A DNA stretch of 42,387 nucleotides, from IMG/VR virus record IMGVR_UViG_3300044800_000047, positions 1 through 42,387 of that record. The stretch is one strand, 5' to 3'. Origin of the DNA: a virus. The first letter of the stretch is position 1. Every line of letters begins with the position of its first letter. Position numbers and translations under genes: made by a program. The notes under the pieces are model-generated. The model made no database searches. It was not told where the DNA came from and saw nothing but the letters and a program-made list of their open reading frames with translations. Below are positions 4,175 through 39,892 of the stretch, one piece after another.

Positions 4175-4653
4175 GGGGCGTCTACGCACGACCGCCAGTC
4201 GAGCAACGCTTCTGGGCCAAGGTCGACATGTCCGGCGGAATGCTGGGTTGCTGGCCCTATCTTGGCGCCCCACGTGGCCCTGAGGGCTACGGCGCCTTCT
4301 GGCTCGACGGTCGCCAGCAGATCGCCAGCCGAGTGGCCTACCTCCTCTCAAACGGCCCCATCGCGGACGACGTCGTCGTTCGCCATAGTTGCGACAACAG
4401 TCAGTGCTGCAACCCCCTGCATCTCCTGGCCGGCAGCCAGGTCGAGAACATCGCCGACAAGATCATTCGGCGCCGTCAGGCGGTTGGTAGCAGGGTCGGC
4501 ACCTCTCGGCTCACCGAAGCGGTAGTGCATGAGATCCGTGCCCGATTCACGGGCCGACGCGGCGAGGGTAGGAAGCTGGCCACTGAGTACGGCGTCAGTG
4601 AGACGGTCGTCTCCGGGATCGTGAGGCGCCAGACCTGGAGACATGTCACATGA
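4171..4653 (+). CDS. HNH homing-type endonuclease with C-terminal helix-turn-helix
   Basis: The 160-residue protein carries an HNH_3-like nuclease core: CWPYLGAPRGPEGYGAFW, ASRVAYLLSNGPI, VVRHSCDNSQCCNPLHL and SQVENIADKI. The His of VRHSCD and the CCNPLHL segment supply the expected metal and catalytic residues. Residues 115-158 form a small helix-turn-helix (ATEYGVSETVVSGIVRR), as in many free-standing homing endonucleases. It is inserted between recombination genes without breaking the ATGA chain. The short protein at 16421 ends in a related helix-turn-helix. Confidence 0.85.
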   Translation: MRGVYARPPVEQRFWAKVDMSGGMLGCWPYLGAPRGPEGYGAFWLDGRQQIASRVAYLLSNGPIADDVVVRHSCDNSQCCNPLHLLAGSQVENIADKIIRRRQAVGSRVGTSRLTEAVVHEIRARFTGRRGEGRKLATEYGVSETVVSGIVRRQTWRHVT

Positions 4654-5810
4654 CCACGATCGCGTTCTGTGCGGATCTCCATGTGGATGTCTACGGGCAG
4701 AAGGTCGTCCCATCGACAGGTCTGAACGCTCGTCTTGCCGACTACCTCGCAACTCTGCGATGGATGGCCGAAAAGTCGGCCGCGGAGGCCGAGGCCCTGG
4801 TCGTGGCCGGCGATTTCACGGAGCGAGGCCACCCGGCGCCCTGGCTAGTTTCCCTGATCCGCGCAGGCCTGAGCTATGGCCCGGAGCGGCAGGTCTATCT
4901 GCGCGGAAACCACGACCGAGAGATCGCCGGCGGCTCCATCGTCTCGATCCTCGACGACGGCACCGAGAGTTACACCGACGAGGGAGCCCGGATCGGTATC
5001 AGCCGCCCTCGGCTCGTGTCGATCGAGGAGGATGTCGTCCTCGCCTGCATCCCGTTCCTCGATCGACATTGGCTCCGAGCCCAGTCGGGCATGGAGCACG
5101 TCGCCGACGACGAGATCTTCGGGATCCTCTCCGAGCAGATCGTCACCATCTCGGCCGGCCTGTATGCCGAGGCCAAGCGCGACTATCCAGACGCTGGCGT
5201 GGTCCTGGTCCTGCATCAGACACTTGCCGGCGCTCACATGTCCGAGACGCAGCAGGCGTTCCTGGGCGATCGCGGGACCGTGGTCGACGCGGCTCGCCTG
5301 GCCGGCATCGGCTTCGAAGGGATCGTCGCCGGCCACCTGCACCGGCACCAAGTGCTCGGCGGCCTGCCGTGCCCGGTCGTCATTCCTGGTTCGATCGAAA
5401 GAGTTGACTTCGGCGAAGAGCGAGAGGCCAAGGGCTTCGTCCTGGCCGACGTCGGCCCGGGCCGCTTCGCCTGGCGCTTCGTCGAGACGCCGGCGCGGCG
5501 CTTCGTGACACTCGACCTCGCCCAGCATGAGACCTGGCAGTTAACGGTCGACCTCCACGACGCGATCGTGCGGGCCATCAACGTCCCGCCCGAGATCGAC
5601 TCGGCTACCTTCCGCCGCAACCTCGAGGCCGAGGGCGCCTTCGAGGTAGCCGAGATCCGCCGCCGCCCCATGGTCATCCCAGAACTGGCCGGCGGGTTGT
5701 CCGAGGCCATGAGCCCGAGCGACGCCCTCGAGGAATTCTTCCGGGGCGATGACGACGAGCCCGCCCTAATCGAACAGGGTCGGCGGCTGCTGGCCGAGGT
5801 GGTGACATGA
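4650..5810 (+). CDS. sbcD: SbcD/Mre11-like nuclease subunit
   Basis: The 386-residue calcineurin-like phosphoesterase has the metal-binding motifs in order: D9 and H11 in CADLHVD, G54-D55 in VVAGDFTERG, N87-H88-D89 in LRGNHDR, H189 in VLVLHQT, and H229 and H231 in AGHLHRHQ. With the ATPase encoded at 6471 it should form a Mre11/Rad50-type exo- and endonuclease acting on double-strand ends and hairpins, comparable to T4 gp47/gp46. The length fits the family. The start overlaps the HNH stop by ATGA. Two small genes lie between it and its ATPase partner. Confidence 0.9.
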   Translation: MTTIAFCADLHVDVYGQKVVPSTGLNARLADYLATLRWMAEKSAAEAEALVVAGDFTERGHPAPWLVSLIRAGLSYGPERQVYLRGNHDREIAGGSIVSILDDGTESYTDEGARIGISRPRLVSIEEDVVLACIPFLDRHWLRAQSGMEHVADDEIFGILSEQIVTISAGLYAEAKRDYPDAGVVLVLHQTLAGAHMSETQQAFLGDRGTVVDAARLAGIGFEGIVAGHLHRHQVLGGLPCPVVIPGSIERVDFGEEREAKGFVLADVGPGRFAWRFVETPARRFVTLDLAQHETWQLTVDLHDAIVRAINVPPEIDSATFRRNLEAEGAFEVAEIRRRPMVIPELAGGLSEAMSPSDALEEFFRGDDDEPALIEQGRRLLAEVVT

Positions 5811-6025: not shown

Positions 6026-6474
6026 AGCCCGCCAAGCGCTACGCCGCGGGCACGACTGTCCCCGTCCTCAAGAGCCGCCAGGACATGCAGGGGCTGCTCG
6101 ACGCGAACGGTTGCACGGCTTTCGGCTTCGAGAAGATCGACAACGGCGATGCCCTCTACTTCAAGCTCGGCGGCCGGTCCTATCGGATCGTCATTCGCAA
6201 GCCGACGGCCGAAGAACAGAGAGCGGCGAACGCGAAGCGCTACCGCTACCCCTGGGGGCGCGACGTGCCCACGGACATCGAGGCCGAGTACCGCCGGCGC
6301 TGGCGGGCCAACCTCATGCTCCTCAAGACCAAGCTGGAGTTCTTCGACGAGGATGACTCGTCCGAACTCAGCCGCGAGCTGATGCCCTGGCTGCTGCTCG
6401 ACAGCGGTCAGACGCTCGCTGACGCGGTGAATGGCGGCGGGCTACCGCTCCTCATGTCGGGGGCCCAGTCATGA
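6022..6474 (+). CDS. Conserved phage protein of recombination operons
   Basis: The 150-residue protein opens YAAGTTVPVLKSRQDMQGLL, a pattern I recognise from small phage proteins near recombination or replication genes, followed by a beta-rich half (GGRSYRIVIRKP) and a helical half (RRRWRANLMLLKTKLEFF, ELMPWLLLDSG). Its biochemical function is unknown. It sits immediately upstream of the SbcC-like ATPase with a four-base overlap. Confidence 0.7.
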   Translation: MKPAKRYAAGTTVPVLKSRQDMQGLLDANGCTAFGFEKIDNGDALYFKLGGRSYRIVIRKPTAEEQRAANAKRYRYPWGRDVPTDIEAEYRRRWRANLMLLKTKLEFFDEDDSSELSRELMPWLLLDSGQTLADAVNGGGLPLLMSGAQS

Positions 6475-8702
6475 AGCTCAACAGCCTCCAACTCCGCCAT
6501 TTCATCAGCCACGCCGCGACAGATCTTGCCCTCAACGATGCCCGCCTGACGACCTTCGTCGGCGCCAACGGCAGCGGTAAGAGCGCCCTGGCGATCGACG
6601 CGCTCCGCTACGCGCTGTTCGACGACGCCCGCGGCCGCACCGACGACCTGGTCCAACTCGGTCAGAACGAGATGAGCGTGCGGGCGGAGATCAGCTTCGC
6701 CGGCGCTGAGTACGCGATCACCCGCGGCCGCTCGACTAAGGCGCGGGGATCATCCTTCCTCGAACTGTCGATCCGCAGACCTGCCGCCGGCGATGACGCC
6801 TGGCGCCCCCTGACCGGCGACACCATCCGCGATACCCAGGCCAAGATCGCCGAGCTGCTCCGCATGGACGCCGACACCTTCGACACGGCCGTCCTGCTCG
6901 GCCAAGGCCAGGCCAACCGATTCGCGGAGGCCACCGCCGGCGACCGCAAGAAGATCCTCGGCACAGTCCTAGGACTCGATCTCTGGGAGCGGGCGGAGAC
7001 CCGGACCCGGGAAGAGGCACGCGACGTCGAGGCATCCACCGCCGCCGACCGCGCCACCATCGCCCGGCTCGAGGCGGAGCTGATGGCGCGCGAGGCCCTG
7101 GAGATGCAGCGGGTCGAGAGCGAGACACTTGCCGCTTCCCTCGAAGCCGTAGACCGCCAGGACGAGGCGACGCGCGTCGAGCTGATCGCCACGATGCAGG
7201 GTTTCGCGCTGGGGATCGCCAATGGCGAGGCGGCCTCACGTGAGGCCGCGCAGCGCAAGGCTGAACTCGAAGAGCAGGCGATCCGTTACCGCCGAGTATC
7301 CGCGCGGAAAGCCGATGCGCAGGGCAAGCTCGGCGAGGCGCAACGAGCAATCGCGGCTGCTCCTAGACCCGACGTGACGATCGACTGCCATCAACTCGAG
7401 GGAGACGTCGCTCGCCTGGAGGCCGCTGAGGCACGGGACCGTGAGCTCGAGCGGGCGATCGCCACCAACAGCGCGGCCCTCGATCAGGAGAGGCTCCGGT
7501 TCGACGCCGCTGTCCGAGAGCATCGCCTCAAGCTCGACGATGCCGCCCGACGCGTGGCCGAACTGCAGGCCGACCTGGCGGCTCTGCTGCCGGTTACCTG
7601 CCCCAAGTGCAACCACAGCTGGGCCCACGACCAGGCGGGACTCGGAGACAAGCTCCTGGCCGCGCGCACGGCCGTCCGGGATTTCCCGGCCGACCCCACC
7701 GAGCCGATGCACTTCGCGGTAGAGGCCGGCAAGGTCGAGCGGCTGCGCGTCAACCGGCGCGAGCTGGCCTTCGACCCGACAACCCTCGGCGATGTTCGCG
7801 TAGGCCTCCGAGCCGCCCTGGCCGCCCGAGAGGCCGCGGCACGGCTCGATGCTCTGCGCTCGATCGCCGAGACGGCCCGGACCACGATCACCGAGGCCGA
7901 GGCCGAGTTGACGGAGATCGAGACGAACGGCAAGGCTGCCCGCACTGCGCTCGAAGAGGCCGAGATCCGATCCTCCGAAGGCGACGCGCTGCGATCCCGG
8001 GCCGAGGAAACCTCCTTCCTCCTCCGAACGGTCGAGAGCAGCCTCAGGTCCCGAGCCGAGGATCGCCGGCGAGTGGCGGGCACGATCGCTCAAGCCGCTG
8101 CCGCCCTCGAGCGGCTCGATCGACTTGCGGCCGACCGCGGGATCCTGTCCACCGGTCTTGCCGAGAGCGATCGTCGGCTCTCCCGTCTGCGCCGGCTTGT
8201 CCAGGCCTTCGGCGTCACCGGGATCCCCGCCCGGATCATCGAGAGTGTTCTGCCGGAGCTCACCACTTCGGCCAACGAACTCCTCGCCCAACTGCGTCCC
8301 GGCATGGTCCTGGACATCCGGGCCCAGAGGGCCAAGAAGGACGGCAAGGGCATCGTCGAGGCGCTCGACCTGGTCGTGTCGGACGACGTCGGCGAGCGCC
8401 CGTTGGGCCTGTATAGCGGCGGGGAGCGTATGAGCGTGTCATTGGCCATGGCTGTCGGACTCTCGCGCTTGGTGGCCCGTAGGGCCGGCACAGCTATACG
8501 CACGCTGGTCATCGACGAGCCCGATGGCCTCGACTCCGACGCCCGCCGCTCATTCGGGCAGGCGCTCCGGATCCTCGCCCACCAGGGCGAACTCGAGCGC
8601 GTCCTCCTCGTCTCTCATCACCAGGATCTCGCCGACGTCGGCGACGCCGTGTATCAGGTGACCAAAGAGGCTACCGGCAGCCATGTCGAGCAGATCGCAT
8701 GA
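6471..8702 (+). CDS. sbcC: SbcC/Rad50-like ATPase
   Basis: The 743-residue SMC-type protein has Walker A GANGSGKS at residues 31-38, a long coiled coil broken by a zinc hook CPKC at about 377-380, the ABC signature SGGERMSVSLA near 648, and Walker B LVIDEPDGLD near 679. It is shorter than bacterial SbcC (about 1000 residues) and closer to T4 gp46-like proteins. It should clamp DNA and gate the SbcD-like nuclease encoded at 4650, processing replication and recombination ends. The start is set by an ATGA overlap. Confidence 0.92.
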   Translation: MKLNSLQLRHFISHAATDLALNDARLTTFVGANGSGKSALAIDALRYALFDDARGRTDDLVQLGQNEMSVRAEISFAGAEYAITRGRSTKARGSSFLELSIRRPAAGDDAWRPLTGDTIRDTQAKIAELLRMDADTFDTAVLLGQGQANRFAEATAGDRKKILGTVLGLDLWERAETRTREEARDVEASTAADRATIARLEAELMAREALEMQRVESETLAASLEAVDRQDEATRVELIATMQGFALGIANGEAASREAAQRKAELEEQAIRYRRVSARKADAQGKLGEAQRAIAAAPRPDVTIDCHQLEGDVARLEAAEARDRELERAIATNSAALDQERLRFDAAVREHRLKLDDAARRVAELQADLAALLPVTCPKCNHSWAHDQAGLGDKLLAARTAVRDFPADPTEPMHFAVEAGKVERLRVNRRELAFDPTTLGDVRVGLRAALAAREAAARLDALRSIAETARTTITEAEAELTEIETNGKAARTALEEAEIRSSEGDALRSRAEETSFLLRTVESSLRSRAEDRRRVAGTIAQAAAALERLDRLAADRGILSTGLAESDRRLSRLRRLVQAFGVTGIPARIIESVLPELTTSANELLAQLRPGMVLDIRAQRAKKDGKGIVEALDLVVSDDVGERPLGLYSGGERMSVSLAMAVGLSRLVARRAGTAIRTLVIDEPDGLDSDARRSFGQALRILAHQGELERVLLVSHHQDLADVGDAVYQVTKEATGSHVEQIA

Positions 8703-10201: not shown

Positions 10202-10461
10202 GCCACCAGGGCCACTACCCCTCGCAGATGATGGCGTCAGAACTGCCGTTCACCGTCCGCCTCGCGATTCGAGAGGACCGTCGTATGGGGCCGTCCAAGC
10301 GGTGCAGCCGGTGCCAGGTGTGGCTGTCGCGAGATTCGTTCGCCCTCGATGTGAGTCGGCCCGATGGCCGTTGCCACTACTGCCGAAGTTGCCAGGCACG
10401 GCGAACCCTTCGATGGCGAGAGGCGCGGAAGGCAGGGGCGGCATGCGTATCCGTCAGATAA
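10198..10461 (+). CDS. Zinc-ribbon protein, HNH-like N-terminal pattern
   Basis: The 87-residue product contains CSRCQVWLSRDSFALD followed by RCHYCRSCQARRTLRW. The pattern of two CxxC pairs separated by a phage-type S-x-DG segment is the zinc-binding half of some HNH endonucleases, but the HNH catalytic half is absent. It may be a truncated HNH protein or a stand-alone DNA-binding ribbon. It overlaps the next gene by 19 bases. Confidence 0.6.
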   Translation: MSHQGHYPSQMMASELPFTVRLAIREDRRMGPSKRCSRCQVWLSRDSFALDVSRPDGRCHYCRSCQARRTLRWREARKAGAACVSVR

Positions 10462-10997
10462 AGCCCTCCTTCTGGACGGATAGCGTTATGGCGAGCCTGC
10501 CGTATGCCACGCGCCTGTTCTACGTCGGCCTGTGGGGCCAGGCGGACGACGCCGGCTGGCTGCGGTGGGATCCGTACCGGATCGGCTGCGAACTCTACGG
10601 GGGGGAACCCCGGGGAGGGCGCGAACGGCGCATCGAAGCATGGCGGCTGGAACTGGAGGCCGTCGGCCGACTCGTCTCCTACCCCTGCGGGCACGCCCAG
10701 ATACCGCACTTGACCGAACACCAGCACCTCCCGGCCTTCGAAAAGCGGGTAAACACCGAACTGCGGGGTCACGAGAGAAACTGCGGAAAACCGCGAGGAA
10801 CCGCGAGTACACCAGACCCCACCAAACCACCAATCCCCGTGAGTAACCGCGAGGAACCGCGACTCCCCGATTTTCCCCGCCTTGGTAAAGGTAAGGGAAA
10901 GGGAATGGTAAACGCGCGCGAAGCGCCAGAGAACGACGGACTCAAGGCCCGACTCGGGGAATACGAGGACATCATGGGAACCGAGGGCAAGCCATGA
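10443..10997 (+). CDS. Replication protein 1 (replisome-organiser / DnaD-like N-terminal domain)
   Basis: The 184-residue protein opens MRIRQIKPSFWTDSVM, followed by TRLFYVGLWGQADDAGWLRW, a winged-helix pattern common to phage replisome organisers and DnaD/DnaT-like loaders. The domain ends near residue 100. The remainder is a low-complexity basic linker (PRGTASTPDPTKPP, GKGKGKG) in which the DNA carries iteron-like repeats at 10759-10862. Such proteins bind the phage origin and recruit the host helicase. There is no ATPase domain, so the loader would come from the host or the second organiser at 13411. Confidence 0.75.
   Translation: MRIRQIKPSFWTDSVMASLPYATRLFYVGLWGQADDAGWLRWDPYRIGCELYGGEPRGGRERRIEAWRLELEAVGRLVSYPCGHAQIPHLTEHQHLPAFEKRVNTELRGHERNCGKPRGTASTPDPTKPPIPVSNREEPRLPDFPRLGKGKGKGMVNAREAPENDGLKARLGEYEDIMGTEGKP
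10759..10862. repeat. 10-bp-phased iterons inside replication gene 1
   Basis: Copies of AACYGCGR start at 10759, 10779, 10789 and 10799, all on a 10-bp phase, with a second pair at 10845 and 10855. The 18-base unit at 10789-10806 recurs exactly at 10845-10862. A 10-base period is one helical turn and is not a multiple of three, so it is not produced by a repeated peptide. A comparatively AT-rich purine tract follows to about 10912. This is the pattern of an initiator-binding array and a candidate origin. Confidence 0.6.
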
Positions 10998-12680: not shown

Positions 12681-13069
12681 CCAGCGAAGTCTTCCTCGGC
12701 AATCGCGGTCTGTTCTCAGGCGGCCGGCAGCCCCATCCGCCACCCCAGCACATGGAGGGCGAGTCCCCGAAGCAAGACCCCGGCCAGGAGCCGGAGCGAA
12801 AGGAGATCCATCACATGAGACTGCTCCTCGGTCCGTGCCGCTGCCAGGGCTGCGGCGACCCCGTCCGCTACATCGAGCCAGATGAGGGCCTGCCCGGCTG
12901 GTTCTGGTTCGACATCGCCTGGGAAGGTCCAATCCCATGGACGCTGCGGCGCCACCGCTGCCCGGCTGGCCGCAGGCCGATCGCGGCGCGGATCCTACGG
13001 CCGTGGACTGCCTCTGGCCAGGCGATCGTCTTCGAGGGGCGGCTGCGCCTCGGGTCAGGAGCGGCATGA
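12677..13069 (+). CDS. Small zinc-motif protein
   Basis: The 130-residue frame from the ATGA overlap has a disordered Pro-rich first third and a folded remainder beginning MRLLLGPCRCQGCGDPVRYI. The internal ATG at 12815 has a strong AAAGGAG about nine bases upstream, so an 84-residue product from there is at least as likely. Cysteines in PCRCQGCG and RHRC could hold zinc. Confidence 0.55.
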   Translation: MTSEVFLGNRGLFSGGRQPHPPPQHMEGESPKQDPGQEPERKEIHHMRLLLGPCRCQGCGDPVRYIEPDEGLPGWFWFDIAWEGPIPWTLRRHRCPAGRRPIAARILRPWTASGQAIVFEGRLRLGSGAA

Positions 13070-13410
13070 CCAAGCCGCTGGTGTACATCGCCCACCCGCT
13101 CTCGGGTGATTGGGAGGCCAACATCGCGCAGGCCCGGCTCTGGGTGGGCGCCGCGTTCAGAGCCGGCATGTTCCCTGTGGCGCCCTACCTCGTCTGCGAG
13201 AGCGTCCTGCACGAGCCGGAGGACCGCGAGCTCGGGCTCGAGTACGACCTCGTCTTCCTCGAGATGGTCGACGCGCTTTGGCTGTGCGGGTCGCGGATCT
13301 CCCCGGGCATGGCAGCCGAGACTGCTCGGGCGAGAGAAATCGGGCTCACCGTAGTCCGCTGGACAGACCTTGCCGACCTCGAGAGCCTGGCCGAATCGAG
13401 GGCCGGATAG
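13066..13410 (+). CDS. Nucleoside 2-deoxyribosyltransferase-like protein (DUF4406-type)
   Basis: The 114-residue protein has VYIAHPLSG at the N-terminus, APYLVCESVLHEPEDRELGLE in the middle, and VDALWLCGSRISPGMAAE near the end, the order seen in deoxyribosyltransferase-related DUF4406 proteins (a nucleotide-binding first strand, an acidic central residue and a GS.G.. loop). It may act on modified nucleotides or nucleotide metabolites during infection. The substrate is unknown. The start is an ATGA overlap. Confidence 0.75.
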   Translation: MTKPLVYIAHPLSGDWEANIAQARLWVGAAFRAGMFPVAPYLVCESVLHEPEDRELGLEYDLVFLEMVDALWLCGSRISPGMAAETARAREIGLTVVRWTDLADLESLAESRAG

Positions 13411-14172
13411 ATGCCTTGGGGCCGCGTCGACGACGACTTCTACGACCACCCGAAGGTCGTGAACATGCCTGCCGGCGTGCGCAACGCGGCGTGTGGCCTG
13501 TACTGGCGGGCCGTCAGCTACTGCAACCGCTACCTGACGGATGGCCGCCTGTCAGAGGCCGCTCTGGTGAAGCTCGATGCCCGCCCCGAGGAGATCAAAG
13601 CACTCCTGATGATTGCCCCGGGAATGCGCTTCGGATTGTTCGAGAAGTGTCCGGGAAAGGGCAGCGGATACCGCATCCATGACTTCCTCGCGAAGAACAA
13701 GAGTCGCGACGAAGTGTATGCAGAGCGTGAAGCCAAGGTAGAGGCGGGTCGCGCCGGAGGTCTGCAGAGTGGGCGTATTCGCGCTCAAAAGGCCCAAGCA
13801 AACGCGAAGCAGGGTGCTTCGGTCGTGCTTCCGAGACGCGAAGCAGAGGGCAAGCAGGGTGCTTCACGAAGCACGAAGCAAACGCGAAGCAAACGCGAAG
13901 CACCCGGAGTTGAACTCCCGTCCCGTCCCGTCCCGTTAACTACCCCCATACCCCCGCAAGCGGGGGCTCGACCAAGGTCACGACGCAAGAAAGGCGACAC
14001 GCCCCGATCGAATGGCAACAACCCACGGCTGCTGCGCGAGGGCAATGCCCAAGTAGACGCGAAGGTGATGGGCGATCTGGCAGAGCGCACGGCAGCGTGG
14101 AACGCAGCGCATCCGGGCGATCAGATACCGACCAAGGACGAGACGATCCCCGACTGGATGGCAGGTTCGTGA
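13411..14172 (+). CDS. Replication protein 2 (DnaD-like organiser with internal repeats)
   Basis: The 253-residue protein begins directly after the previous TAG. The N-terminal MPWGRVDDDFYDHPKV, ACGLYWRAVSYCNRYL and DGRLSEAALVKL pattern is a winged-helix domain of phage replication proteins. Residues 105-120 are a Lys/Glu helix, followed by a basic low-complexity linker (about 120-200) with KQGAS repeated, and a short C-terminal helix ending PDWMAGS. The linker DNA at 13800-13966 has iterons, tandem TCCCG and a hairpin. It is the second organiser-like gene in the genome. Confidence 0.72.
   Translation: MPWGRVDDDFYDHPKVVNMPAGVRNAACGLYWRAVSYCNRYLTDGRLSEAALVKLDARPEEIKALLMIAPGMRFGLFEKCPGKGSGYRIHDFLAKNKSRDEVYAEREAKVEAGRAGGLQSGRIRAQKAQANAKQGASVVLPRREAEGKQGASRSTKQTRSKREAPGVELPSRPVPLTTPIPPQAGARPRSRRKKGDTPRSNGNNPRLLREGNAQVDAKVMGDLAERTAAWNAAHPGDQIPTKDETIPDWMAGS
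13800..13902. repeat. Iterons inside replication gene 2
   Basis: AAACGCGAAGCA occurs at 13800-13811, 13880-13891 and 13891-13902, with ACGCGAAGCA at 13836-13845. Two shorter copies CACGAAGCA lie at 13865-13873 and 13872-13880. The period of 11 between the last two full copies does not match codon length. This resembles the initiator-binding repeats in lambda gene O, which also lie inside the initiator gene. Confidence 0.65.
13916..13966. repeat. Tandem TCCCG units and hairpin next to iterons
   Basis: Four tandem TCCCG units fill 13916-13935. After TTAACTA, CCCCCGC at 13951-13957 pairs perfectly with GCGGGGG at 13960-13966. Such features next to initiator repeats could form part of an origin or restrict fork movement. 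That role is inferred from position only. Confidence 0.45.
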
Positions 14173-14414
14173 TGTGCATATGCAATAGGGCAGCAAACGA
14201 CTGGATACCGAATAAACCGCGCGCTGCGCCACAACCTGCGACGCTTGACCTGGTGGGCGCCTGCGCCTTCGAAAGTGAGGGTGGTGGGGGTAGGAACACG
14301 GCGGTAGCCTTACGAGTACGACCCGGGCTCCCCTATCTCGCGCTTCCGGACAGGTTCGCCCGTTTTTTATCCACTACGCCACGGGCTTTCCAGTCAGAGA
14401 GGGCCCTCTCATGA
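14172..14414 (+). CDS. Uncertain small gene
   Basis: The 80-residue frame is supported mainly by its junctions, TGATG with the previous stop and ATGA with the next start. Its composition is not convincingly protein-like. It starts MCICNRAANDWIPNK and the rest lacks motifs. In another frame, 14308-14412 reads PYEYDPGSPISRFRTG without a start codon, so a decayed gene here is also possible. Confidence 0.4.
   Translation: MCICNRAANDWIPNKPRAAPQPATLDLVGACAFESEGGGGRNTAVALRVRPGLPYLALPDRFARFLSTTPRAFQSERALS
14397..14410. promoter_or_regulatory. 14-bp perfect palindrome before a start codon
   Basis: GAGAGGGCCCTCTC is a perfect palindrome ending immediately before the ATG at 14411. Its AGAGGG half also forms the only purine-rich ribosome-binding site for that gene. 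It could be a protein-binding site or an RNA element that masks initiation. Confidence 0.5.
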
Positions 14415-23421: not shown

Positions 23422-24963
23422 ATGGGCGCCTATCGCGTTCCGCCTCACTGGCAAGCCGATCGCTTCTTCAAGTACGGCGAGGAGTATGTCTGCCACACCA
23501 AGGGTCGCTGGGCTCGACAGAAACTCATCTACGAACCCTGGCAGCGGGCCTTCTGGTATGAGGCGCTTGAGTGCGATCCCGTCACCGGCCTGCGCATTTA
23601 CAACGAAGTCGGGCTCGGCCTCCCCCGGAAGAACGGCAAGAGCGTCATGGCTAGCCACCTTGGCCTGTTCTTCCTTGACCCGCTCGGAGAGGGTGAGAAC
23701 GAGCCTGAGGTCCTTGTGGCCGCGGCCGCCAAGGGCCAGGCCGGTATCGTCATGGGCCAGTCGGTTGCTATGGCGCTCCAGTCCCCTGAGTTATCCGAAC
23801 GGTTCAGGTCAACCAAGTACCGCATCGACTGTCCGTACAACGGCGGTGTCATGCGGTCCGTCTCGGCGGCGGCGGCTCTACAGCACGGCACCAGCCCGTC
23901 TCTCGGCCTCATTGACGAGATGCATGCGCACTCTGACGACGGCGCTCTTTACACCGCTCTCACAACCGGCGGCGGCGCCCGCGAGCAGGGTCTCACGTTC
24001 TGGTTCTCTGCCGCCGGAGCGGCAGGAGAGGGCATCCTGGCCGATCTCTATGAGTCGATGTTCAGTGGCGTCGGCAAGCTGGAAGTCCTCAACGACGGCT
24101 GCCTGCTCATCTACCGAGACAAGGTCAACGGGACCCTCATCTACTGGTACGGCGCTCCCAAGGACGCCGACATTGCGGACCCTGCGATCTGGCGGCTCTG
24201 CAACCCGATCAGCTACCTCCAAGACCTCAAGTACCTCACCAAGCAATACGCGAACCTCGGCGCCCGTGGTGCGCTCGGCGAGTGGCGCCGCTACCACCTC
24301 AACCAGTTCAACGCGACCGAAGACACCTGGCTCAAGTCGGGTACGTGGGCTGCGACGGTCGGCGATGCGCCCCTCGACGCCGCACTGCCCATCGGCGTGG
24401 GCATCGACCGCGATCCTGACGGCGAACAGATCGGCGTCGTGGTCGCCCAGAAGCAGGGGGATCGCGTCGTGACGCGGGCGCAGTTGTTCGGCCCTGAGTC
24501 CACCGGCATGGCCAGCACGGAGGCCGTCCGCGTCGCCCTGCGCGAGCTCCGGCTGACGTACCCACTGCCCCAGACTGCCGAGGAAAAGACCAGACGCCCG
24601 ATTCCCGGCCCCGCCTATGGGTTCGATCCTGCGAGCCTGCCGGACTTCGCGGACGCCCTCAACCAAGAGGGTCTGAACATGGTTGAGATGAGCATGACGC
24701 CGGCCGTCATGGCGCCCCCTTCGATGATGACCTACGAACTCATCACGACCGGGCGCCTTGTCCACACCGCCGATCCGATCTTCGCCGAGCACGTCGCCAA
24801 CACCACGGCCACGTTGACGGACCGCGGCATGAAGGTCCTGCGATCCAAGAACTCGGCACGGCCAAACGTGCTCGGCGTGGCACTGCCGAAGGCCGTCGCC
24901 CTGGCCTTGCAGGACGCGCCGAAGCCGTTTGTGCGACGGCCTCGGCGCGCGGTGGGGTTCTGA
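23422..24963 (+). CDS. terL: Terminase large subunit
   Basis: The 513-residue protein has a Walker A-like GLPRKNGKS at about residues 64-72, the Walker B LGLIDEMH at about 161-168, and a C-terminal nuclease part with GIDRDPDGEQIGVVV near 330. The ATPase powers DNA translocation into proheads and the nuclease cuts concatemers. The length suits TerL. The start directly follows the TerS stop. Confidence 0.92.
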   Translation: MGAYRVPPHWQADRFFKYGEEYVCHTKGRWARQKLIYEPWQRAFWYEALECDPVTGLRIYNEVGLGLPRKNGKSVMASHLGLFFLDPLGEGENEPEVLVAAAAKGQAGIVMGQSVAMALQSPELSERFRSTKYRIDCPYNGGVMRSVSAAAALQHGTSPSLGLIDEMHAHSDDGALYTALTTGGGAREQGLTFWFSAAGAAGEGILADLYESMFSGVGKLEVLNDGCLLIYRDKVNGTLIYWYGAPKDADIADPAIWRLCNPISYLQDLKYLTKQYANLGARGALGEWRRYHLNQFNATEDTWLKSGTWAATVGDAPLDAALPIGVGIDRDPDGEQIGVVVAQKQGDRVVTRAQLFGPESTGMASTEAVRVALRELRLTYPLPQTAEEKTRRPIPGPAYGFDPASLPDFADALNQEGLNMVEMSMTPAVMAPPSMMTYELITTGRLVHTADPIFAEHVANTTATLTDRGMKVLRSKNSARPNVLGVALPKAVALALQDAPKPFVRRPRRAVGF

Positions 24964-38888: not shown

Positions 38889-39892
38889 CCCTCGCAGCCG
38901 TCGCTCTCCGCTGGGCATCAGGCCGCGGTCTCGTCGCGGACCTCCAGCCGCCCGACTTCTCGATGTTCCTCGAGATCACGGCCGGCCTGGACGACACGGC
39001 CCCGGTGCGGGGGGAGGATCAGGTCATCCCCTTCCGCCGCGGCCTCGCCCTCAGCTCACATTTCGCCGACGCGCGCCCGATCATCCTGACTGGTTTTGTG
39101 CAGGATACCGACGCCGATGCACCGGAGACCTACCGCACCGCCTTCGATCTGCTCAAGGCTCTCTTCTCGCCGACCTCCGGGCTGGGCCGACTGACCGCGA
39201 CCCTGGAGGATGGGACGACGCGCCATATCCTCGCTCGCCCGGTGAACATCATCGCGGGCAATCAGGACAGTCGCGGCTTCCGGGAGGTCTCGATTGAACT
39301 GAGTGCGCTCGATCCTTACTGGTACGGGCGCTGGGGCGCCATGACAGCCGACAGCGGCTACCTGGCCAACTTCCATGACACCTGGCCCATTCCCCAGGCT
39401 GACGGCTCCTACGTCGCCACGCCCTCCGGTCTTTATCGCGAATTGCGGGCTGACTCCTCGACCGAGATCATCTGCGCCGCAGGGACCGTCAATCTGTCCC
39501 TCGATGTGCCCGGGAACCGCGACTGCGAACGGGCCCGCGTCATCTGGGAAAGCATTGTGGAGGGGCAATTCCCGAACCCTGGCACCTGGTTGATGACCGC
39601 CGGGGTTGGCGAGACGGGTATCGGTTTCTCTGTCTCCCGCCTATCGGGCACCGTCACGGCCCCTGGTCTCTATCCGCGGGTGATCGTCGATAACGATGCG
39701 CGCCTCGTGATGTGGGGTTTGGAGGAAACCGATCAGGTCGACCCGAGTACGAGCCTGCGTCAGTACCTGATTCCCAACGTCGGCAATCAGAACGGCGAAT
39801 TCCTACGGCTGCCGGCCGGCCCCTGCAACCTCCAGATTGTCACCCCGGTCAACCTCCGGGCTCGCGTCCAGTTCTTCCCGACCTACGAATGA
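38885..39892 (+). CDS. Distal tail protein (Dit-like)
   Basis: The 335-residue protein has an N-terminal domain with RGLALSSHFADARPIILTGF, then APETYRTAFDLLKALFSP and a C-terminal half with EVSIELSALDPYWYGRWGA, followed by a beta-sandwich, fitting Dit proteins that join tube and tip. The start overlaps the tape measure stop by ATGA. Confidence 0.75.
   Translation: MTLAAVALRWASGRGLVADLQPPDFSMFLEITAGLDDTAPVRGEDQVIPFRRGLALSSHFADARPIILTGFVQDTDADAPETYRTAFDLLKALFSPTSGLGRLTATLEDGTTRHILARPVNIIAGNQDSRGFREVSIELSALDPYWYGRWGAMTADSGYLANFHDTWPIPQADGSYVATPSGLYRELRADSSTEIICAAGTVNLSLDVPGNRDCERARVIWESIVEGQFPNPGTWLMTAGVGETGIGFSVSRLSGTVTAPGLYPRVIVDNDARLVMWGLEETDQVDPSTSLRQYLIPNVGNQNGEFLRLPAGPCNLQIVTPVNLRARVQFFPTYE

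Follow-up and report, generated by a model that had tools for sequence, protein, structure and literature searches.

The window (the whole 42,387-nucleotide stretch of viral DNA analysed here) contains a gene, called rep2 below, whose protein matches the profiles PHROG_2447 (E 3e-25) and PHROG_3926 (E 3e-18, “replication initiation protein”). A tblastn search with rep2 led to RepA-like replication initiators in phages of Microbacterium, Gordonia and Propionibacterium. For example, in Microbacterium phage Dropshot the rep2 homolog is followed by a helicase loader, a DnaB-like helicase and an SSB. On the basis of the PHROG matches and the gene neighbourhood in these relatives, rep2 is assigned as a phage replication initiator. 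The upstream neighbour (12937-13410) matches DUF7768 / nucleoside 2-deoxyribosyltransferase, and Propionibacterium phage E6 has an equivalent gene ahead of its initiator. The intergenic stretch 14173-14410 was searched for tRNA genes and none was found. Elsewhere in the window, an SbcD-like phosphoesterase gene (4650-5810) and an SbcC-like (AAA_23/SMC) gene (6471-8702) lie near each other.

In the AlphaFold (AF2) model of the rep2 protein, the pLDDT is above 90 for residues 1-130. The modelled N-terminal domain is compact, with helices and a small sheet, and is followed by a long basic helix, while the linker has low confidence and appears disordered; this poorly ordered linker is the part of the protein encoded by the repeats. 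Foldseek against PDB gave no significant relative of solved structure (best matches with E>0.6), several of the weak matches being winged-helix DNA-binding proteins. The gene had been called “DnaD-like” in the first-pass annotation. This label is unsupported: the protein has no Pfam match at E<=0.01, no DnaD homology was found, and among 55 rep2 relatives only 3 gave a weak match, to the DNA-binding domain of DnaT.

Table 1. Features of the two initiator genes and of the repeat module in the window.
Feature	Position	Strand	Description
Second initiator gene rep1 (MRIRQIKPSFW...)	10443-10997	+	phrog_1408/16167/2149, “replication initiation protein”
rep1-internal array	10789-10862	+	AACCGCGAGG x4
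Purine tract after rep1 array	10884-10911	+	GGTAAA/GGGAAA
Initiator gene rep2	13411-14172	+	253 aa; probable winged-helix-like N-domain, predicted disordered linker
Basic-helix coding stretch	13705-13818	+	residues 99-136; AF2 model; directly after N-domain
Iteron array	13796-13906	.	8 forward AAGCA cores and 3 inverted GTGCTTC
AAACGCGAAGCA	13800-13811, 13880-13891, 13891-13902		exact copies
ACGCGAAGCA	13836-13845		one further copy
CACGAAGCA	13865-13873, 13872-13880
Inverted GTGCTTC copies	13814, 13825, 13859
Tandem (TCCCG)4 tract	13916-13936	.	TCCCGTCCCGTCCCGTCCCG at 13916-13935
Hairpin CCCCCGCAAGCGGGGG	13951-13966	.	stem 6-7 bp

The forward cores of the array consist of three AAACGCGAAGCA, one GACGCGAAGCA, two CACGAAGCA and two CAAGCA (Table 1). 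The repeats, the four TCCCG units and the hairpin named in the first-pass annotation are all present within a base or two of where it had placed them, and its list was short of the three inverted GTGCTTC copies. Over the 150 nt that precede the tract we counted 57 pairs of repeated 8-mers (49 direct and 8 inverted), compared with 2.2 expected from codon shuffles that leave the protein unchanged; not one of 200 such shuffles came up to the observed value. All four exact sites of CGCGAAGCA in the 42-kb window fall within the array region. Besides, the 11-nt spacing of the repeats is out of frame, as had been argued in saying that such a period cannot come from codon repetition. The repeats in rep2 are thereby confirmed to be real and beyond chance. 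The bottom strand of the TCCCG tract reads GGGACGGGACGGGACGGG, a four-run G-quadruplex-type motif, and the tract is the sole (C3+N1-3)x3C3+ motif of the window with both strands scanned.

Scanning IMG/VR and bacterial genomes with profiles yielded 137 loci, and 99 genes were left after removing those more than 75% identical. Across these homologs the linker DNA has a recurring order, i.e. a repeat array, then a tandem C-run tract and often a hairpin, and the two-part order of array and tract recurs in about 90 divergent genes. The repeat unit varies by lineage: it is CGAAGCA in the window, CTAGCAC in three homologs (L002, which is 57% identical, L003 and L004), and AAGCAAA, GTGACTCACG, TTCGGGCGAACA or GTTAGTAAC in others. 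Under a protein-preserving null, the arrays of 56 of 95 genes are over-repeated at p<=0.05, and 57% of the direct repeat pairs in homolog arrays are out of frame; 36 of the 99 arrays fit no simple repeat class.

The tract is built from CCCGA (36 genes), CCCGT (16 genes), CCCAT, CCCGTA, CCCGAT, CCCAGT and other units. A three-run C-tract was found in 86 of the 99 non-redundant homologs against 38 expected by within-gene synonymous shuffling, and a four-run C-tract in 70 against 15, while the coding strand of none of the 99 carries a four-run G-tract. When codon usage was taken from the rest of each gene, 69 of 86 genes contained a four-run tract against 11 expected, and the excess of the four-run motif over the synonymous-codon null is about six-fold. 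The motif density is 0.92/kb inside the family genes, compared with 0.016/kb over 566 kb of flanking DNA. A G-quadruplex-prone tract (four runs of at least 3 G with short loops) is thus carried by the window and by 70 of the 99 homologs; gp15 of Streptomyces phage VWB (NC_005345; L358 10829-11785) belongs to the family but has no C-tract. Period-6 tracts occur in each of the three reading frames, and related DNA units are thereby translated as PVPVPV, RTRTRT/SRSRSR or PIPIPI, so selection on the protein is hard to accept as their cause.

We also searched the whole of IMG/VR for (CCCGW)3CCC, independent of gene family. Among the matches listed, 50 of 88 sites (80 loci) lie in or beside the rep2 family, and the others include reversed-polarity cases and unrelated repeats. 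For instance, a rep2-type gene in L185 (near 4248) has TTCG-class repeats and a tract of reverse polarity, the coding strand being the G-rich one. In L193 (near 6488, reverse strand), TTCGGGCGAACA repeats, an ACCCG tract and a CTAACG-loop hairpin occur with no rep2 ORF detected nearby. Another initiator-like gene, on the opposite strand of locus L147 (near 8475), has a GGGAC tract and then a CTAAAG-loop hairpin in the coding direction, which looks as if the module recurs in another gene family.

In six homologs with an early stop codon (B22 gp53 in L007, and L044, L063, L069, L071 and L093), the repeats and/or the C-tract continue past the stop. For example, in Propionibacterium phage B22 the array and the tract fall within the 189 bp that separate gp53 from gp54, and no other four-run motif exists in the complete genome of 37 kb. 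Such non-coding copies are the strongest evidence that DNA, not peptide, is conserved. The check proposed by the first-pass annotation, that related phages should keep the repeats at the DNA but not at the protein level, was therefore borne out by lineage-specific arrays, C-tracts in several frames and arrays that run into non-coding DNA.

The class of repeat corresponds to the type of the basic helix. AGCA-class arrays pair with an AGRxGG helix (18 of 18), TTCG-CGAA arrays with an ERMxxxR helix (22 of 22) and GTCAC arrays with an ERQR-type helix (13 of 16); these classes and patterns were defined after inspection of the data, which an out-of-sample set mitigates. This set comprised homologs from the independent DNA-pattern scan that fall short of 75% identity to the first set. 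With the same definitions, 3 of 3 AGCA, 4 of 4 TTCG-CGAA and 4 of 7 GTCAC arrays were paired in the same way, with no cross-match among the three types and with 27 of 45 arrays outside any class. Nearest-neighbour prediction of the class was correct for 81% with the helix (a stretch that may contain some repeat-encoded residues), 61% with the N-domain and 35% by majority. An unsupervised test, without hand-made classes and with the stretches kept apart, was significant (0 of 1000 permutations) with a modest effect, the partial r being 0.22 for the helix given the N-domain and 0.18 for the N-domain given the helix. The pairing may also reflect shared ancestry or the physical linkage between helix and array.

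As judged from this comparative evidence, the array and the tract are functional at the DNA level. The repeat block is very probably the place where copying of the genome starts, because it is kept as DNA across about 100 phages while the amino acids change, and we regard 13796-13966 as a probable lambda-type replication origin located within its own initiator gene, with a probability of roughly 0.77. The repeat array lies inside the initiator coding sequence, as in a lambda-type intragenic origin. An easily melted A+T-rich region was not found beside the repeats, where the adjoining tract is GC-rich (TCCCG)n, and the proposal that the locus works like lambda would replace the A+T-rich region with a strand-asymmetric, G-quadruplex-prone tract. 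GC skew, which had been suggested as a further check, turned out to be uninformative: at 13.8 kb the skew of the window has no inflection, and in B22, Dropshot and GMA1 the cumulative skew reaches its extremes elsewhere than at the module. VWB has its skew maximum at the initiator gene, yet the tract is absent there, so this maximum is not evidence.

The second initiator gene, rep1, is located 2.4 kb upstream of rep2 and has an array and a tract of its own (Table 1). The AACCGCGAGG repeat is retained in L142, whose gene is 60% identical to rep1, while L143 has GATGCGCGCG repeats instead. Relatives of rep1 in actinobacterial, Vibrio and Pseudomonas phages (L264-L268 and L269-L348) mostly contain intragenic purine tracts, for example (GGGAA)n or (GGGGAACA)n, in a strand polarity opposite to that of rep2, and several have repeats before the tract. 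In Pseudomonas phage Fyn8, the rep1 relative lies between an antirepressor and the helicase loader, which is the position of lambda O. No rep1 homolog was found on the contigs of the closest rep2 relatives and no rep2 on those of the rep1 relatives, all of which may be incomplete; a phage with both genes is thus unusual in this small sample. The first-pass annotation had taken the rep2 array for the main origin or one of two. The reading as an origin is supported, and with a second array so near, that in rep2 may be the main origin or a secondary one.

The iterons recognised by plasmid and P1-type Rep proteins frequently serve as control sites as well. The rep2 array could likewise be the site through which the initiator controls its own expression, copy number or incompatibility, the true origin being elsewhere, for example in rep1, and both the general control role of such iterons and the presence of a second initiator gene would fit. 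We consider this unlikely, since the array is in the middle of the gene and not at a promoter, it is joined in fixed order to a strand-asymmetric tract throughout the family, and the closest relatives of either gene do without the other on the contigs at hand, incomplete as these may be.

The hairpin was also compared across the family. Within 70 nt past the tract, a perfect stem of at least 8 is present in 30% of the genes, compared with 2.4% of synonymous shuffles and 1.4% of random windows. The loops CTAAAG, CTAACG, CTGACG and CTACG were found in 27 of 43 hairpins past the tract, against 1 of roughly 500 hairpins elsewhere. The 29 hairpins found by their loop have 29 different stems, lie 6-17 nt past the tract and share one reading frame. 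Such a hairpin with conserved loop and free stem exists in about a third of the family, and the loop in the window (GCAAGC) is unlike the common ones. A varying stem with a constant loop indicates that a nucleic-acid structure is maintained, which may act as a DNA or an RNA element; the ambiguity comes from the fixed frame and from the consensus-loop hairpin not being seen in the non-coding copies of the early-stop homologs. The CTA/CTG triplet in the loop might, as a speculation, be a primase site. These same observations would suit a terminator, pause or translational control element acting in RNA and formed by the hairpin, perhaps with the tract, to which the repeats would be incidental. 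The fixed frame, however, is also expected from an inherited hairpin anchored to the downstream coding frame, and an RNA element leaves unexplained the inverted copies, the lineage-specific arrays, the helix match and the non-coding arrays and tracts, which makes it quite improbable.

Repeats with inverted copies can also be packaging or partition sites. A pac/cos or parS-like site inside the gene is nevertheless very improbable, since the large terminase gene (23422-24963) is 9 kb away in the window and the module travels with the initiator gene across phages of differing genome order. Neutral slippage expansion of a low-complexity linker, suggested by the predicted disorder and the tandem units, was rejected as hardly credible, because the comparative data contradict it with inverted copies, out-of-frame periods, an excess relative to the synonymous-codon null, copies retained outside coding sequence and the two-part order in about 90 divergent genes.

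For an origin inside rep2, the comparison shows conservation of array and tract at the DNA level, their fixed order and the match of repeat class and helix; binding, unwinding, helicase loading, G-quadruplex formation and a role of the hairpin are inferred steps of a possible mechanism. The probable winged-helix-like domain at the N-terminus and the basic helix after it would bind the repeat array, and the bound initiator complex would open the duplex at the adjoining tandem TCCCG tract. The G-rich bottom strand could then fold into a G-quadruplex, with the C-rich top strand left single-stranded, so that the helicase loader and helicase would be delivered to the opened tract. The downstream hairpin may act as a priming, loading or pausing site.

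The layout can be compared with several known systems. Iteron plasmid and P1 RepA origins have a direct-repeat array and, as is probable for rep2, an N-terminal winged-helix-like domain in the initiator. Their arrays are usually located outside the gene, whereas the rep2 array is intragenic and the rep2 model has no significant structural match. In lambda, gene O contains iterons (39034-39118), then AAAAGAAAAAAGAAAAGA and then a dyad sequence, and the duplex is unwound at the AT-rich tract (PMC7466680). The candidate initiator-binding repeats within the gene, the strand-asymmetric tract, the dyad or hairpin and, in rep2 relatives, the helicase-loader gene next in line resemble the lambda origin in gene O and its relatives in Stx phages. 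Unlike the A-rich tract of lambda, that of rep2 is a GC-rich C/G-run tract with a tandem unit of 5-6 nt; the repeat unit is short (7-12 nt) and exchanged between lineages, and about a third of the family members have a hairpin with conserved loop and free stem. This is a likeness of layout; the two protein families may be unrelated.

In mycobacteriophages with RepA, whose prophages are extrachromosomal, the origin was proposed to be upstream of or within repA, and the authors reported that they found no repeats in the regions examined (PMC7157519). The two proteins are both RepA-type initiators and are likened by type only, repeats being found in rep2. In Bacillus subtilis oriC, DnaA-trios and a TnnT-based DnaD recognition element are present (PMC10201434). 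As a layout analogy only, double-strand sites are followed there by a short-unit tract that is exposed single-stranded for helicase delivery, but the proteins and sequences are others, and no DnaD homology was detected in rep2.

In the literature searched, whose journal coverage is incomplete, we found no earlier description of the rep2-type architecture, and a prior description is possible. The same literature gave no mapped origins for most actinobacterial phages. The pattern of lineage-specific repeats followed by a CCCGW-type tract allows origins to be predicted in about a hundred phages and prophages, among them sequenced laboratory phages of Microbacterium, Gordonia and Propionibacterium, and each prediction can be tested directly. 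More tentatively, and with odds that we put below even, GC-rich intragenic origins that open at a strand-folding C/G-run tract might be widespread, with helix and repeats coevolving as an exchangeable specificity cassette. The pairing of repeat and helix would offer a natural specificity code open to testing, and the replacement of an AT-rich unwinding element by a GC-rich tract makes it a mechanistic question how such origins are opened.
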